Shown piece by piece: positions 6,543 through 12,044 of a stretch of DNA of 64,000 nucleotides (position 1 is its first letter; every line of letters begins with the position of its first letter). Location of the stretch: the NCBI RefSeq assembly GCF_900111645.1, contig NZ_FOHQ01000001.1, forward strand, positions 248,001 through 312,000. Direction: 5' to 3'. A model generated the notes under the pieces. The model ran no database searches. It saw nothing but the letters and a program-made list of their open reading frames with translations, and was not told where the DNA came from. The position numbers were made by a program, and so were the translations under genes. The stretch comes from Methanococcoides vulcani (GTDB lineage: Archaea; Halobacteriota; Methanosarcinia; Methanosarcinales; Methanosarcinaceae).

Positions 6543-7268
6543 ATGATAGGTGTATCATCCTTTGCTTTTCACGAGCTTCCACTTTCGGAAGCACTGGAGA
6601 AAATTGAACCGATAGCAGATTGTGCAGAGATCTTCTCTGAAGGATCGCATGACCTCTTTCGTGAGGAAGAACTGGCGTTTTCCTATGATCTGAAGTATAC
6701 TGTCCATGCACCAAGCACTGATATGAATCTGTCCAGCCTGAGGGAACCTATCCGGCTTGCAGCTATCAATTTGGTCGAAGAGATGGCTGACATATGCAAT
6801 GAGCTGGATTCCGATGTTCTGGTGGTTCATCCCGGATATTTTTCCTATCCTGTGGATATGATGCATGCACAGACGTCATTTGAGAGTTCAATTGTTGACC
6901 TTGAGAGGATATCAAGAGATACAGGTGTCAGGATGTGTATTGAGAACATGCCAAAATGGGACTGTTTTTTGCTCAGGCACCCCGAGCTTGATCTTGGAGG
7001 GAATGGTTTTACTCTTGATGTTGGGCATGCGAACACATTGGGGAACCTTAATGATTTCCTGGAAATGGGGGACTCGATCTCGCATTTTCACTTGCACGAT
7101 AATAATGGGGAAATCGATGACCATTTCTTTATTGGTGGAGGAAATATTGATTTTCCATCATTTTCCGGTTTGCTTAACAAAAGTAAAGCAACTAAGATCA
7201 TCGAAAATAAGTGTGAAGAGGATGTTCTCAAAAGTCTGGAAGCCCTTCATAGAATGAGTATTAAATAA
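6543..7268 (+). CDS. Sugar-phosphate isomerase/AP-endonuclease-2-like TIM-barrel protein
   Basis: 241-aa single-domain protein of the xylose isomerase-like TIM-barrel family (PF01261), which includes endonuclease IV and sugar isomerases/epimerases. Metal-ligand-type motifs along the barrel strands are visible: TVHAPS, LVVHPGY, CIENMP, LDVGHAN, HFHLHDNNGEID and the late IIENK. GAGGAG lies 8 nt before the ATG. It is shorter than endonuclease IV (about 280 aa), and its substrate cannot be read from the sequence. Its place beside a repair-like operon makes a nucleic-acid role thinkable but unproven. Confidence 0.8.
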   Translation: MIGVSSFAFHELPLSEALEKIEPIADCAEIFSEGSHDLFREEELAFSYDLKYTVHAPSTDMNLSSLREPIRLAAINLVEEMADICNELDSDVLVVHPGYFSYPVDMMHAQTSFESSIVDLERISRDTGVRMCIENMPKWDCFLLRHPELDLGGNGFTLDVGHANTLGNLNDFLEMGDSISHFHLHDNNGEIDDHFFIGGGNIDFPSFSGLLNKSKATKIIENKCEEDVLKSLEALHRMSIK

Positions 7269-7326
7269 ATCTGCATTCTCACTGAATTATACAATTAGGC
7301 TACCCGTTAACACTGTAAACAAAGAC

Positions 7327-7334
7327 TTATATAT
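7327..7334 (+). promoter_or_regulatory. TATA box, leaderless promoter of the ArsR-type regulator
   Basis: TTATATAT centred about 25 bp before the ATG at 7356. There is no ribosome site before that ATG, which fits a leaderless transcript starting at or next to the start codon. Confidence 0.6.
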
Positions 7335-7355
7335 CATGAAGTTACCTTTTTACTT

Positions 7356-7871
7356 ATGAGTCAGTTAGATAATAAAGTATTCCATGCCCTGGGAAGCGAT
7401 ACACGTGTCCGGATGCTTGAATTGCTTGATGAAGGGGAGAAGCACATATCTGAACTTGCTAGGCTGTTGGGTATTTCCGTACCTGTGGCTGCAAAACACG
7501 TTAAGATATTAGAAGAGGCTGACCTTGTTGAGCGAAAGATCTTCGGGAAAACACATGTGTTGAAGCCGAACAGGGAAAATATCTATCTCGCTATGAATGT
7601 GTTCGCACCTACAAAATCAATAGAGGTAGAAAAAGGTACAACGTTACTTGACGCTCTTCGAGGGGTTGCGGCTATCAAGGTCCAGAAAAAAGGCGACAGG
7701 GAAGTTATCGTTTCAACCGATGGCGAAGAAGGTCTTTATGTCTATGAGATAAACGGCGAGTTCTCGGAAAAATCCGTTCAGAACTGTGTTCTTGATGAAG
7801 ATACGACAATAGAATGGAAGAAGCTGGAGCCTGTCACAAAGATCAAGCTTGACATACATGTGAAGGAATGA
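7356..7871 (+). CDS. ArsR-type HTH regulator with a DUF4430-like C-terminal domain
   Basis: 171 aa. Residues 5-75 form a winged helix-turn-helix of the ArsR type (FHALGSDTRVRMLELL, then ISELARLLGISVPVAAKHVK). No ArsR metal-binding cysteines are present. Residues about 88-165 resemble DUF4430 (EKGTTLLDALRG, YEINGEF, LDEDTTIEW), a fold better known from extracellular ligand-binding proteins, which could act here as a ligand sensor. The stop overlaps a possible start of the radical SAM gene (ATGA at 7868-7871), so it is likely the operon's own regulator. Confidence 0.75.
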   Translation: MSQLDNKVFHALGSDTRVRMLELLDEGEKHISELARLLGISVPVAAKHVKILEEADLVERKIFGKTHVLKPNRENIYLAMNVFAPTKSIEVEKGTTLLDALRGVAAIKVQKKGDREVIVSTDGEEGLYVYEINGEFSEKSVQNCVLDEDTTIEWKKLEPVTKIKLDIHVKE

Positions 7872-7918
7872 TCTTCTCTTTTTTTGGAAATAATACTTTC
7901 ACTCCGCTTGGCTGGCGA

Positions 7919-7926
7919 TTATATAG
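7919..7926 (+). promoter_or_regulatory. Possible internal TATA box for the radical SAM gene
   Basis: TTATATAG lies about 26 bp before the ATG at 7949. That ATG is the start favoured by comparison with the usual N-terminus of the radical SAM family. A leaderless internal transcript is therefore possible. The box lies inside the longer reading of the gene, so it could also be chance. Confidence 0.35.
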
Positions 7927-7948
7927 CTACGCTGCAATCTATCAATTG

Positions 7949-9088
7949 ATGATTGCTGAACGAAGGAACGAACAACACCTGACACTATCGGAGAGAATGA
8001 AATTACTCTCCTCAGGAACTAAATATGACAGTTGCAACCAGAGTGCAGTCTGCCATGCGTTCGGTCCCGATGGAAGATGCATACAACTTTATAAGACATT
8101 ATTATCAAATTCCTGTGCAGGGGAGTGTGCTTATTGCCCGAACCGCTGCGAACGACATACTATGAGGGCAACACTTGATCCCGAGGAGATCGCAAAGATC
8201 ACCTGGTCCTTTTACAGAAGGAATGCTATCGAGGGTTTGTTCCTTTCTTCCGGCATAATGGGTGATGCCGAGCAGACCTCACAGAAGCAATTGGAAGTTG
8301 TTGAGCTTTTGAGAGGGCAGGGATTCAAGGGTTACATCAACATACGGGTGATGCCAGGCACTCCTAAATACTTACTTGAGCAGATAGCCGAACATGCAAA
8401 CAAGTTCGGTGTAAATGCAGAGACCACAAATTCAGTGAACTATTCGGAGATATGTCCGAATTTCGATTACAAGAACGATGTTCTCCAGAGACTCAAATGG
8501 ACAAAGGACCTCATCCAGAAGAAGAGGAGTGAGTATGGGGGAATGGGTCGGCTTGTCGGAGCTAACGATACTCAGTTCGTAGTTGGTGCAGTGTCAGAAT
8601 CGGATAAGGAAATTGTGAGGACCGTTGATAAGTTCATGGACAAATACGAACTTAGAAGACCGTATTTTATGAGTTTTGACCCGGTTCCTGATACTCCGTT
8701 AGAGGATGGTAAACCTTCTCCAAAATGGCGTGAACAGAGATTGTATCAGATGTCTTTCCTGTTGAAGGATTATGGGTTGAAGGCAAATGATTTTGATGAT
8801 GTCTATGATGAACATGGTTTTCTTGGTAATTATGATCCTAAAGTAATGCTCGCGCAATCACAACCTGACCGATTCCCGGTGGATATCAATTCTGCGGATA
8901 TGTCCGATCTGCTTTTGGTACCCGGGATCGGTCCGGTAAGTGCAAACAGGATCATACGTACGCGTCCCATAGCCTCTGAGCAGGAACTCGCACGTATGGG
9001 TGTTGTTGTAACCCATGCACGGCCCTACATCTCGATAAACGGTTCAAGGCAGGCAAATCTGGCATCTTTCATGGGGGCATGTTCATGA
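7949..9088 (+). CDS. Putative DNA modification/repair radical SAM protein (TIGR03916-like)
   Basis: Radical SAM enzyme of the family usually paired with a DUF4130 protein and linked to uracil-DNA glycosylase-like domains in bacteria. The CxxxCxxC cluster motif (CAGECAYCPNRC) lies near residue 55, and GLFLSSGI and the remainder of the barrel follow. A C-terminal helix-hairpin-helix (VPGIGPVSANRII, about residues 325-338) indicates DNA binding. The frame is open back to an ATG at 7868 that overlaps the regulator's stop, giving 27 more hydrophobic residues. I prefer 7949, where MIAERRNEQHL leads into the family's usual beginning. The actual reaction is not known for this family. Confidence 0.85.
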   Translation: MIAERRNEQHLTLSERMKLLSSGTKYDSCNQSAVCHAFGPDGRCIQLYKTLLSNSCAGECAYCPNRCERHTMRATLDPEEIAKITWSFYRRNAIEGLFLSSGIMGDAEQTSQKQLEVVELLRGQGFKGYINIRVMPGTPKYLLEQIAEHANKFGVNAETTNSVNYSEICPNFDYKNDVLQRLKWTKDLIQKKRSEYGGMGRLVGANDTQFVVGAVSESDKEIVRTVDKFMDKYELRRPYFMSFDPVPDTPLEDGKPSPKWREQRLYQMSFLLKDYGLKANDFDDVYDEHGFLGNYDPKVMLAQSQPDRFPVDINSADMSDLLLVPGIGPVSANRIIRTRPIASEQELARMGVVVTHARPYISINGSRQANLASFMGACS

Positions 9089-9918
9089 TAATAGCTTTCA
9101 GTCCTACTGTGGATGGCATCCTGCTTGCATGCTCCTGTTTTAGGGACTATCCTGGTGCTGAACTGGTCTTTGCAAAGGATGCACAGGAACTTGATCGCAA
9201 ACTTAGTTTTTCAGGTTCTAATAGGCAAGTCCAGAGATTAGGGTTCCTCCCTTACGGAAGGACCGAATCGCTTTCAAAAGAGATCTTCGGCAAGCGAAAA
9301 GCACGAATGGCACGTTTCGATCCGACCCCCTTACGTTATGTGGACCTTCTTCTCAGGCACAAGGACTGTGACCCGGTTGAGCTGGTACAGTTGATCGTTT
9401 CATGCAATGGGGATACTGATCAACTTTATTCCGGAAAGGGGAGGCTTGCAAAAAGGTACTACAATTACATGCGCGATGTATCAAGGGCATATGAAAGACT
9501 ATGCATGTTCTCACGACCGGATCTCAAAGGTGGGATACTGTCTGTTGTGATCGATCCACCACATGATATAGGCGAGCTTTTTTGCGGTTGGCTGGCAAGG
9601 AAGAACCCCGATGTTCCTGTTGCTGTTATAGTGAATTCAACGGCATGGGTGGGCAATGGTGATCTTATAGGACTTGATCGTTTTGCAAAAATAACGGCAG
9701 CTTTTATTGAAAGTCTCCAGTCAACATCGGGATCCGATGATGTTGATGATCTGTGGGATATCTATTATGATTCACAGATGATAGAATCACGTCGAAATAT
9801 CGGTCTTGCAAAGAAGATGCAGCCAAAGTTCTCAGCTTCCATGAGCAAGATGGCGAAGAGGGATCGATACAAGGTCGAGAGAGGTATAGCAAATTGCAGG
9901 CTTGACAGTTTTGCATGA
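9085..9918 (+). CDS. DUF4130 probable DNA metabolism protein (TIGR03915-like), without a glycosylase domain
   Basis: 277-aa partner of the radical SAM gene before it, sharing an ATGA overlap with it. It begins with the family's F-x-x-x-x-DG pattern (AFSPTVDGILLACSCF) and ends with the Trp-Asp-Tyr-Tyr region (LWDIYYDSQMIESRRNIGLA). In many bacteria this domain continues into a uracil-DNA glycosylase-like domain; here the protein stops without one. An earlier ATG at 9079 is possible, but GGGGG at 9073-9077 is well spaced only for 9085. Function unknown. Constant pairing with the radical SAM gene suggests one complex or pathway. Confidence 0.85.
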   Translation: MIIAFSPTVDGILLACSCFRDYPGAELVFAKDAQELDRKLSFSGSNRQVQRLGFLPYGRTESLSKEIFGKRKARMARFDPTPLRYVDLLLRHKDCDPVELVQLIVSCNGDTDQLYSGKGRLAKRYYNYMRDVSRAYERLCMFSRPDLKGGILSVVIDPPHDIGELFCGWLARKNPDVPVAVIVNSTAWVGNGDLIGLDRFAKITAAFIESLQSTSGSDDVDDLWDIYYDSQMIESRRNIGLAKKMQPKFSASMSKMAKRDRYKVERGIANCRLDSFA

Positions 9919-9941
9919 TCGATGGGCTACAAGGTGAAATT

Positions 9942-12044
9942 ATGAAAGGTCTACAGGATATTCCGCGTATAGGGGAGAAGATGGCAAAGAGGTTTGAAGA
10001 GCATTTTGGCAGTGAAGATGCTGCTCTTGAAGCTATTCTGGGTGGGGATATTGCAGGTATATCCGAAGTTGAAGGTGTCGGTCAGCGTTATGCTATCTCT
10101 CTTGTCCATGAGGTTCGGGCGCAGCTCGAAGGGGTTACCATGAATGATTTTCTAAAGACAAAAGAGGGTGTTGATATCTATGAACGTCTTCTTGATATCA
10201 TTAAGCAGTTCAGCCATACAAGGTATGCAAAGGATAAGCTGCATGTCTATATACCCTATCCGGAAAGTAAAAAGGATAAGATCGAGGAAGTACGCAATGC
10301 TACAGCAGGCTATATGGGAACAGCTCGTATAATGGGCGATAATCAGGATCTGATTTCCCTGCTGTCTTGTATCAAGACCCTCGAATGCAAATATGCGATC
10401 CCAAAGATACGTGATCGTGCCATACTGACGACCGAGAGCAAACAGTATGAGGTCGCAAAGCAGATATATGGTGATCTGATGGATGTACAGCTTGTTAAGG
10501 GGGGCGGGGAATTTGTGGATGTCGCAAGAGGTTATTCACATGTTGTAGCAGCAGATGACAAGTGCATGCTTTTCGATCTCCCTGAAGACATTGATCCTGA
10601 ATTTCTGACAGATATTCAGAAAGTTGATATGTGGTATATGGTGCCGGAACTTGAGATCGCATTCTTCGCAAAGAATCTTGGTTCCCTGGAGAGCACTATC
10701 CTCATGACGCAGATGTTGCGTACATCAGGGATCGGTTTTGTGGAGGAAATCGGGGGCAATGATCTTGAGGATCTCAAAAGCACACTTTCTCTTATTGATA
10801 GTAGCGGGGATGTGAAATCCGGGTCGGATGCTGCGATCGATCGCCTTGTTCTGATCTCTGATCAGGTGGACGAGTGTGTTTCGAAAGTAATATCCGATGC
10901 AAACTCGACCCTTGATTCCTGCCTTGAACAAAGCAAACTTACGCTCAGCGGCCAGGATATGCTGAAGGTCATGAATGGTAAAATAGAGATAAAGGACCTG
11001 CTTGAAAAGGAGCTTTATCATTCCTATAATTCTGTTGTAAAGGAGGCAAAGGGAAGGCTTGCAAGTGAGCTTTGTCTTGAGAAAGGGGAATTATTGCTTC
11101 TGGAATCTTTCTTCCCGGATGAGATATCACATCCGCTGGAAGTGCAGCAGGACCAGCTCTATGCCTTTAAGCAGCAGATATCCAACCAGATACAGAGAAA
11201 GAAAGTCCAACACAAACGCAATATTGCAAAGGCACTTTCAACTTATCATGATATTGCACAAAAAATGGTGCGTGAAGCCCTGGATTTCGATGTTGGTTTT
11301 TCCATAGGTTGTTTTGCCAGGGAGTTCGATCTCCAGATGCCGGAATTGATCGACAGTTCCGGTATTGCCTTTGAAGATGCTACGAACCTTTTCATAAAAA
11401 CACGGCATGGTTCGGTAGTTCCTATCGATTATTCAGTTGGTGGGACCACACGTGATCCCGATGGGAACAAAAGCGGTGTTGTATTATTGAGTGGTGTGAA
11501 TTCCGGTGGAAAGACGTCTATGCTCGAGTTGGTGGCACAATGCATAATTCTGGCTCATATGGGTTTCCCAACTCCGGCAAAGTATCTTGAGATCGGTTTG
11601 ACAGAAGGTTTCTATTATTTCGGAAAATCCAAGGGAACACTGGATGCAGGTGCATTTGAAACCACACTTGTTGATTTTTCGGTAGTAGCTAACGATTCTC
11701 CAAAGATCGTGCTTGCAGATGAACTTGAATCCATTACCGAGCCGGGTGCTTCTGCAAAGATAATAGGCGGTATTCTTGAGGTCCTTTCAGAGAACAGCAA
11801 TAGTACCTCTATATTCGTATCCCATCTATCGGAGCTAATTCTTGAGAATACAAAATGCTCTGTGCGTGTTGATGGAATTGAGGCAAGTGGTCTTGACAAG
11901 GACCTTAATTTGATCGTGGAGAGGACTCCAAGATATAACTATGTGGCAAAGAGCACCCCTGAGCTCATAGTTGAAAGACTGTCAAGAAGGTCCGAGGGTA
12001 TTGAACAGGAGTTCTACAGAAAGTTAAAGGAAAAGTTCCAGTAA
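9942..12044 (+). CDS. MutS-like ATPase with N-terminal helix-hairpin-helix (archaeal MutS2-related)
   Basis: About 700-aa DNA-repair-type ATPase. The N-terminus holds tandem helix-hairpin-helix motifs (LQDIPRIGEKMAKRF, then VEGVGQRYA). A long helical clamp-like middle follows, then an ABC-type MutS ATPase with Walker A GVNSGGKTSM (near residue 519), Walker B ending LADELESITEP (near residue 590) and a late HLSEL switch. The mismatch-reading domain of MutS (Phe-x-Glu) is absent and no C-terminal Smr nuclease is seen. AAGGTGA at 9931-9937 supports the ATG at 9942; an in-frame ATG at 9915 overlaps the previous stop. It follows the DUF4130 gene by 23 bp. Confidence 0.85.
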   Translation: MKGLQDIPRIGEKMAKRFEEHFGSEDAALEAILGGDIAGISEVEGVGQRYAISLVHEVRAQLEGVTMNDFLKTKEGVDIYERLLDIIKQFSHTRYAKDKLHVYIPYPESKKDKIEEVRNATAGYMGTARIMGDNQDLISLLSCIKTLECKYAIPKIRDRAILTTESKQYEVAKQIYGDLMDVQLVKGGGEFVDVARGYSHVVAADDKCMLFDLPEDIDPEFLTDIQKVDMWYMVPELEIAFFAKNLGSLESTILMTQMLRTSGIGFVEEIGGNDLEDLKSTLSLIDSSGDVKSGSDAAIDRLVLISDQVDECVSKVISDANSTLDSCLEQSKLTLSGQDMLKVMNGKIEIKDLLEKELYHSYNSVVKEAKGRLASELCLEKGELLLLESFFPDEISHPLEVQQDQLYAFKQQISNQIQRKKVQHKRNIAKALSTYHDIAQKMVREALDFDVGFSIGCFAREFDLQMPELIDSSGIAFEDATNLFIKTRHGSVVPIDYSVGGTTRDPDGNKSGVVLLSGVNSGGKTSMLELVAQCIILAHMGFPTPAKYLEIGLTEGFYYFGKSKGTLDAGAFETTLVDFSVVANDSPKIVLADELESITEPGASAKIIGGILEVLSENSNSTSIFVSHLSELILENTKCSVRVDGIEASGLDKDLNLIVERTPRYNYVAKSTPELIVERLSRRSEGIEQEFYRKLKEKFQ

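Follow-up and report, generated by a model that had tools for sequence, protein, structure and literature searches.

A conserved promoter element shared with radA, uvrA, polY and other repair genes places three adjacent genes of the methanogen Methanococcoides vulcani, encoding a radical SAM protein (rSAM), a DUF4130 protein and a MutS5-type ATPase, in what is probably a DNA-damage-inducible repair and recombination operon belonging to an SOS-like regulon. The genes lie at 7949–12044 of a 64,000-nucleotide stretch (the window; GCF_900111645.1, contig NZ_FOHQ01000001.1, positions 248,001–312,000, forward strand), behind a gene for an ArsR-type winged-helix protein. A sequence-only reading of this locus had joined all four genes in one operon, with the ArsR-type protein as its regulator and the MutS-like protein as replacement for a missing glycosylase, and had proposed a DNA-damage or base-modification pathway. 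The four open reading frames (ORFs) do stand on the + strand in the order named, profile searches agree with the assigned families, and a role in DNA damage gains support from the element common to radA, uvrA, polY, hef and RPA; the four-gene operon, the ArsR-type control and the glycosylase exchange did not survive.

The 77 bp between the ArsR-type gene and the rSAM start hold an oligo-T run, the conserved element and a TATA box. Just 3′ of the ArsR-type stop codon, a run of seven T (7879..7885) read from the sequence is terminator-like by comparison with archaeal oligo-T terminators; it is followed on the + strand by the 16-bp upstream element AATACTTTCACTCCGC (7892..7907) and, at a fixed and conserved spacing, by the TATA box TTATATA (7919..7925). 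This arrangement argues that rSAM, DUF4130 and MutS5 have a promoter of their own, so that the likely operon comprises three genes (7949–12044), which would be co-transcribed as a single unit. An alignment of 32 homologous intergenic regions (gaps of about 50–207 bp, all selected for the element with no more than two mismatches) showed AATACTTTCA to be the invariant part of the element and GC(T/A)T and TATA to be strongly conserved, while identity is about 45% in most of the flanking columns. The element thus takes the form AATACTTTCAC-N3-GC about 11 bp before TATA, and in most Methanosarcinaceae loci lies 54–58 bp from the rSAM ATG. It is non-palindromic, is positioned upstream of TATA, and does not have the form of a LexA-type palindromic operator. 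Loci of Methanothrix mostly carry ATTACTTTCGCCCCGC before rSAM at about equal distance, eight of ten further genomes (f5, f13, f16, f23 and others; f, G and L denote families, genomes and loci of the comparison set) show variants of the CACTTTCAC or CACTTTCGC type there, and in f27 the copy is exact. Within the window the element is matched perfectly once, other matches with up to three mismatches occurring at chance level.

The element was counted across genomes, with the reversed pattern in the same genomes as control. Exact copies of the pattern AATACTTTCACNNNGC number 200 against 6 in 42 Methanosarcinaceae genomes, 10 against 1 in f2, 7 against 0 in f11, and 17 against 6 in the other 247 genomes (counts summed by hand); with one mismatch allowed, the M. 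vulcani genome yields 10 against 1. A census of every exact site in 13 genomes (n = 52) found genes of recombination, repair or replication downstream of 29 sites: radA, RPA-like, uvrA, polY, hef, recQ, UvrD-like, XPD-like, MCM, orc1/cdc6, MutS5 and the rSAM operon. Representatives of these targets were verified with Pfam and the remainder assigned by eye from similarity, the RPA-like label being by inspection since Pfam gave no match. A further six sites precede a conserved small ORF and five a conserved non-coding sequence. In M. vulcani the element stands before the RPA-like gene, radA, a UvrD-like gene, the small ORF, the RNA-like sequence and the rSAM operon, and with one mismatch before Hef and a CoiA-like gene. 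An operator-like element is therefore common to recombination, excision and bypass genes, as in an SOS-like regulon. For Methanosarcinales and allied methanogens as a whole, we lean towards an SOS-like DNA-damage regulon marked by AATACTTTCAC-N3-GC before TATA and governed by a non-LexA factor, which would take in recombination, excision repair and bypass synthesis together with rSAM-DUF4130 and MutS5, a conserved protein of about 25–45 residues and a conserved, possibly structured non-coding RNA.

The latter two members are observations in their own right. The small ORF, of the MDDFF..LVxRAxYYEQFExF type, lies directly 3′ of the element in several genera (L231, L235, L253, L260, L276, L280), has a ribosome-binding-like GAGGTGA, and is a candidate damage-induced microprotein. 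The non-coding sequence, GATGG..CACACGCC..TTTCAAGGC..GGTGCCATC, likewise follows the element directly (L230, L251, L261, L262, L284, L286), has a predicted stem with one compensatory pair change, and gave no match in Rfam. In f2 (L244, L264) a small gene behind the element resembles, by inspection alone, an IS200/IS605-type transposase, and damage-linked transposition is possible there.

In the mechanism proposed here, DNA damage would cause a putative trans-acting factor to act at the element and so raise transcription of a set of genes that varies by genome (radA, RPA, uvrA, polY, hef, recQ, UvrD-like and XPD-like helicases, MCM, orc1/cdc6). MutS5 would support the RadA-dependent branch of recombination, probably through Holliday-junction binding, and rSAM, kept on DNA by its helix-hairpin-helix (HHH) domain, and DUF4130 may together act on a base or sugar that is damaged or modified; the ArsR-type gene would be a separate neighbour. 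The sequences show gene content, promoter layout, the conservation of the element and its association with repair genes; damage inducibility is predicted, only a related Halobacterium motif being tied to UV-B induction (PMC2556686).

Several results weigh against this scheme. Other or unclear genes follow 12 of the 52 census sites, and no good copy of the element was found before MutS5 in the haloarchaea, f3, f2, Methanosarcina-like and g4 genomes tested, so that MutS5 is not a constant member of the regulon; in favour of the scheme, MutS5 has its own copy in f11, where it lies apart from the rSAM pair (exact in G009, with two mismatches in G029). The DUF4130 model, itself confident (pLDDT 86.6), gave no convincing structural match in Foldseek, the weak DHH/RecJ/NrnA-like resemblance (best E 1.2e-3, TM 0.39) being left unused. 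Finally, the presence of RPA, MCM and orc1/cdc6 in the element set is also compatible with a replication signal.

This last point underlies an alternative in which the element signals replication, growth phase or nucleotide supply and the operon, expressed together with replication, has a housekeeping role in maintaining the genome. In some genomes the element stands before RPA-like, MCM and orc1/cdc6 genes, and the conserved non-coding transcript that bears it lies about 2 kb from orc1/cdc6 in G000, G073 and G202. However, uvrA, polY, hef, recQ and rSAM-DUF4130 belong to repair and not to replication, and the related Halobacterium motif marks genes induced by UV-B, so that we regard this explanation as unlikely. 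The orc1/cdc6 genes of f11 have the element, exact or with one mismatch (L269, L271, L287, L288), and may parallel the case of Sulfolobus, where Orc1-2 binds the promoter of its own gene. As a general candidate for the regulator, an autoregulated Orc1/Cdc6 activator was set aside because no good match precedes the tested f1, f2 and f3 copies, and it is kept as a lead.

The three genes of the proposed operon are closely packed. The rSAM gene (7949..9088, + strand, 379 aa) lies in an ORF that opens at 7868; its homologues, mostly 377–381 aa long, begin at M28 of this long ORF (7949), and the aligned stretch covering the N-terminal extension contains stop codons in several relatives, so that the ATGA overlap with the regulator gene, earlier thought possible, is unsupported. 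The ATGA overlap between rSAM and DUF4130 is real (9085–9088), the DUF4130 gene (9085..9918, + strand, 277 aa) having an alternative ATG at 9079. The 23-bp gap before MutS5 (9942..12044, + strand, 700 aa) holds with the start at 9942, about residue 10 of an ORF opening at 9915, where most homologues begin.

The rSAM protein has a CxxxCxxC motif and a C-terminal HHH domain (HHH_3, above cut-off), its C56, C60 and C63 being invariant in 30 sequences; scoring 280.8 bits (E 2e-83) against TIGR03916, below the curated cut-off of 343.5, it is by this measure a diverged relative and no formal member. Structure prediction, which had been suggested for both partners, placed rSAM in the HydE/BioB/ThiH class (best E 2e-10, a result that says nothing on substrate) and left DUF4130 without a convincing relative. 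DUF4130 is TIGR03915-like and diverged, passing PF13566 (29.2 bits against 27) and scoring 18.8 bits against 112.25 for TIGR03915; judged by the f11 loci L088, L089 and L091, where its identity to the window protein is about 30% and that of rSAM about 60%, it is evolving much faster than its partner. The MutS-like protein has an N-terminal HHH and MutS domain V with Walker A GVNSGGKTS, and matched MutS_V and HHH-type profiles only, with neither domain I nor the Smr nuclease domain. It has full-length relatives (about 36% identity) across haloarchaea, and by domain content fits archaeal MutS5, the likeness to the Pyrococcus horikoshii protein being by description. Identification as the lysine aminomutase reactivase KamC was rejected (77.6 bits against a cut-off of 300, in the ATPase part only), as was a defence system, since PADLOC matched neither rSAM nor DUF4130 and gave MutS5 no more than a very weak AbiLi hit.

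How far MutS5 belongs with the pair was followed in one set of 295 genomes from the phylum, including the 42 Methanosarcinaceae, and in a neighbourhood comparison of 79 rSAM loci of archaea and bacteria, drawn from named genomes, the nearest of which is Methanococcoides alaskense (87% rSAM identity). MutS5 is present in all 42 Methanosarcinaceae and rSAM in 29, and wherever rSAM occurs the three genes stand next to one another, in one case across a contig end, which is more than chance would give; the other 13 retain MutS5, two of them (g4) in the order CbiR-like, ArsR-type, MutS5, hisB with the rSAM pair cleanly missing. Both rSAM and MutS5 occur unlinked in f11 and f3, MutS5 occurs and rSAM is lacking in haloarchaeal families, and f5, f16 and f23 have rSAM without full-length MutS5. 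Among the 79 loci, DUF4130 adjoins rSAM in 33/33 Methanosarcinaceae loci and 31/41 others, and MutS5 follows the pair in 29/30 and 0/31 testable loci, respectively. The search for conserved neighbourhoods proposed with the sequence-only reading thus had a divided outcome, the association of MutS5 with the pair being real and fixed in Methanosarcinaceae and limited to that family, with none in f3, f11 or any of the 31 other testable loci. Part of this linkage is general synteny, since hisB-hisA-hisG follow the triple as a conserved right flank, yet the triple is kept at L107 and L109 (an ANME-3 bin), where both flanks differ.

The same comparison bears on the pathway as first conceived, with the ArsR-type protein (7356..7871, + strand, 171 aa; HTH_5 at 41 bits, above cut-off) regulating the operon and MutS standing in for a glycosylase. 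In its favour, 26 of 36 loci in Methanosarcinaceae, with differing left flanks, keep all four genes side by side, and an ArsR-type paralogue precedes mutS-mutL in Methanosalsum. Against this, rSAM is separated from the ArsR-type gene by its own promoter and the T-run, the ArsR-type gene has a predicted promoter of its own (TATA-like box CTTATATATC, 7326..7335, + strand, read from the sequence), it is elsewhere or missing in 10 of the 36 loci and upstream of rSAM in none of 38 others, and g4 has it with MutS5 and without the pair. Its full-length relatives are found nearly all through Methanosarcinaceae and are absent from f2, f3 and f11, three groups in which the element or variants of it do occur, and in the congener G212 an orthologue (89%; L181, 1020000–1032000) lies about 400 kb from rSAM beside a transposase-like ORF, which suggests relocation. 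Because it is absent where the element occurs and distant in G212, the ArsR-type protein is unlikely to regulate the element, and its gene appears to be a separate, mobile unit. Nor does the exchange of glycosylase for MutS stand: MutS5 is an independent archaeal family occurring with and without the pair and linked to it within one family only, two genes of the uracil-DNA glycosylase (UDG) family lie on other contigs of the M. vulcani genome, and since no UDG-like neighbour was found at the 79 rSAM loci (a limited test, judged only by similarity to UDGs of the same genome), archaea appear to have had no linked glycosylase that MutS could replace. The four-gene pathway is accordingly very unlikely. 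Scarcely probable, too, is a constitutive base modification by rSAM-DUF4130 with MutS5 adjacent through synteny only, a notion favoured by the NCBIfam label of the rSAM family, ‘putative DNA modification/repair’, and by the conserved his flank, and countered by the element common to repair genes, which argues for inducible use, by the triples kept in L107 and L109, and by the lack of a PADLOC match for the pair.

The ArsR-type protein may have a metal-related or other sensing role. About 100 residues at its C-terminus have weak similarity to DUF4430, and its gene lies beside DUF2162-ExbB-DUF2149 in Methanosarcina-like genomes and elsewhere at CbiMQO and NicO Ni/Co transporters (transporter and DUF2162-ExbB-DUF2149 settings together: L187, L190, L191, L195, L196, L182; L178–L180, L183, L184) or at the end of pilus-type operons, suggesting that the family comprises metal-related regulators. 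Repeatedly beside it stands a CbiR-like gene, in the window (6543–7268) a xylose-isomerase-like TIM barrel weakly similar to cobamide-remodelling CbiR (52 bits, cut-off 105). In Methanosalsum-like genomes the paralogue lies directly upstream of mutS-mutL in L185 (5532–6062, with a CbiR-like gene before it) and L193 (5118–5657).

The SOS-like regulon favoured here has partial counterparts in known systems. In Halobacterium, TTTCACTTTCA lies upstream of TATA in four UV-B-induced genes, radA1, top6B, vng17 and vng280, and a similar motif is found at Methanospirillum radA (Boubriak et al., PMC2556686). The two elements share the core ACTTTCA, the place upstream of TATA and the association with radA, whereas the methanogen element is extended to AATACTTTCAC-N3-GC and found also before uvrA, polY, hef, recQ, RPA-like, MCM, orc1/cdc6 and rSAM-DUF4130-MutS5. 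UV-responsive promoters of Sulfolobus depend on A(N)TTTC, a sequence that lies ahead of the core promoter (PMC5817253) and is bound by Orc1-2 (PMC9738581). The methanogen ACTTTC resembles this element, associated with Orc1-2 and TFB3, in being non-palindromic, upstream of the core promoter and present before orc1/cdc6 in f11, but it is longer and much more specific, has a gene set rich in repair genes, and lacks a good copy before the orc1/cdc6 genes tested in f1, f2 and f3.

As for the proteins, a UDG/COG4277 operon of Bacteroidetes is predicted to lie under LexA-type motifs (PMC8565304), DUF4130 had earlier been predicted to be mutagenesis-related (PMC3765255), and in Paracoccus DUF4130 is fused to UdgX. 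In the bacterial operon, too, a damage-type regulon includes an rSAM from this family, but the archaeal loci are without a linked UDG in the limited search, have MutS5 instead in one family, and carry an element unlike the LexA box. For MutS5 of P. horikoshii, binding to Holliday junctions has been reported (Ohshita 2017, as cited in PMC11276520). The window protein shares with archaeal MutS5 a domain V ATPase without domain I, and orthologue-like single copies extend across haloarchaea, whereas the position directly behind rSAM-DUF4130 is found only in Methanosarcinaceae.

Whether archaea mount a coordinated SOS-like transcriptional response is a long-standing question, such a response being absent from archaeal studies up to 2008 (PMC2556686). 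A search confined to open-access papers found neither the element nor such a regulon described for Methanosarcinales, and an SOS-like DNA-damage regulon thus seems undescribed in these archaea, while the shared promoter element suggests that one exists. Its presence before radA, uvrA, polY, hef, recQ and RPA makes the question testable in methanogens, a group with genetics, and the element, found even in large Methanosarcina-like genomes, can serve as bait for the regulator. Beside the predicted LexA control in bacteria, it would extend the damage-type setting of rSAM-DUF4130 to the regulon of a second domain of life, a context that argues for a real role of the pair in repair and narrows the search for its substrate.

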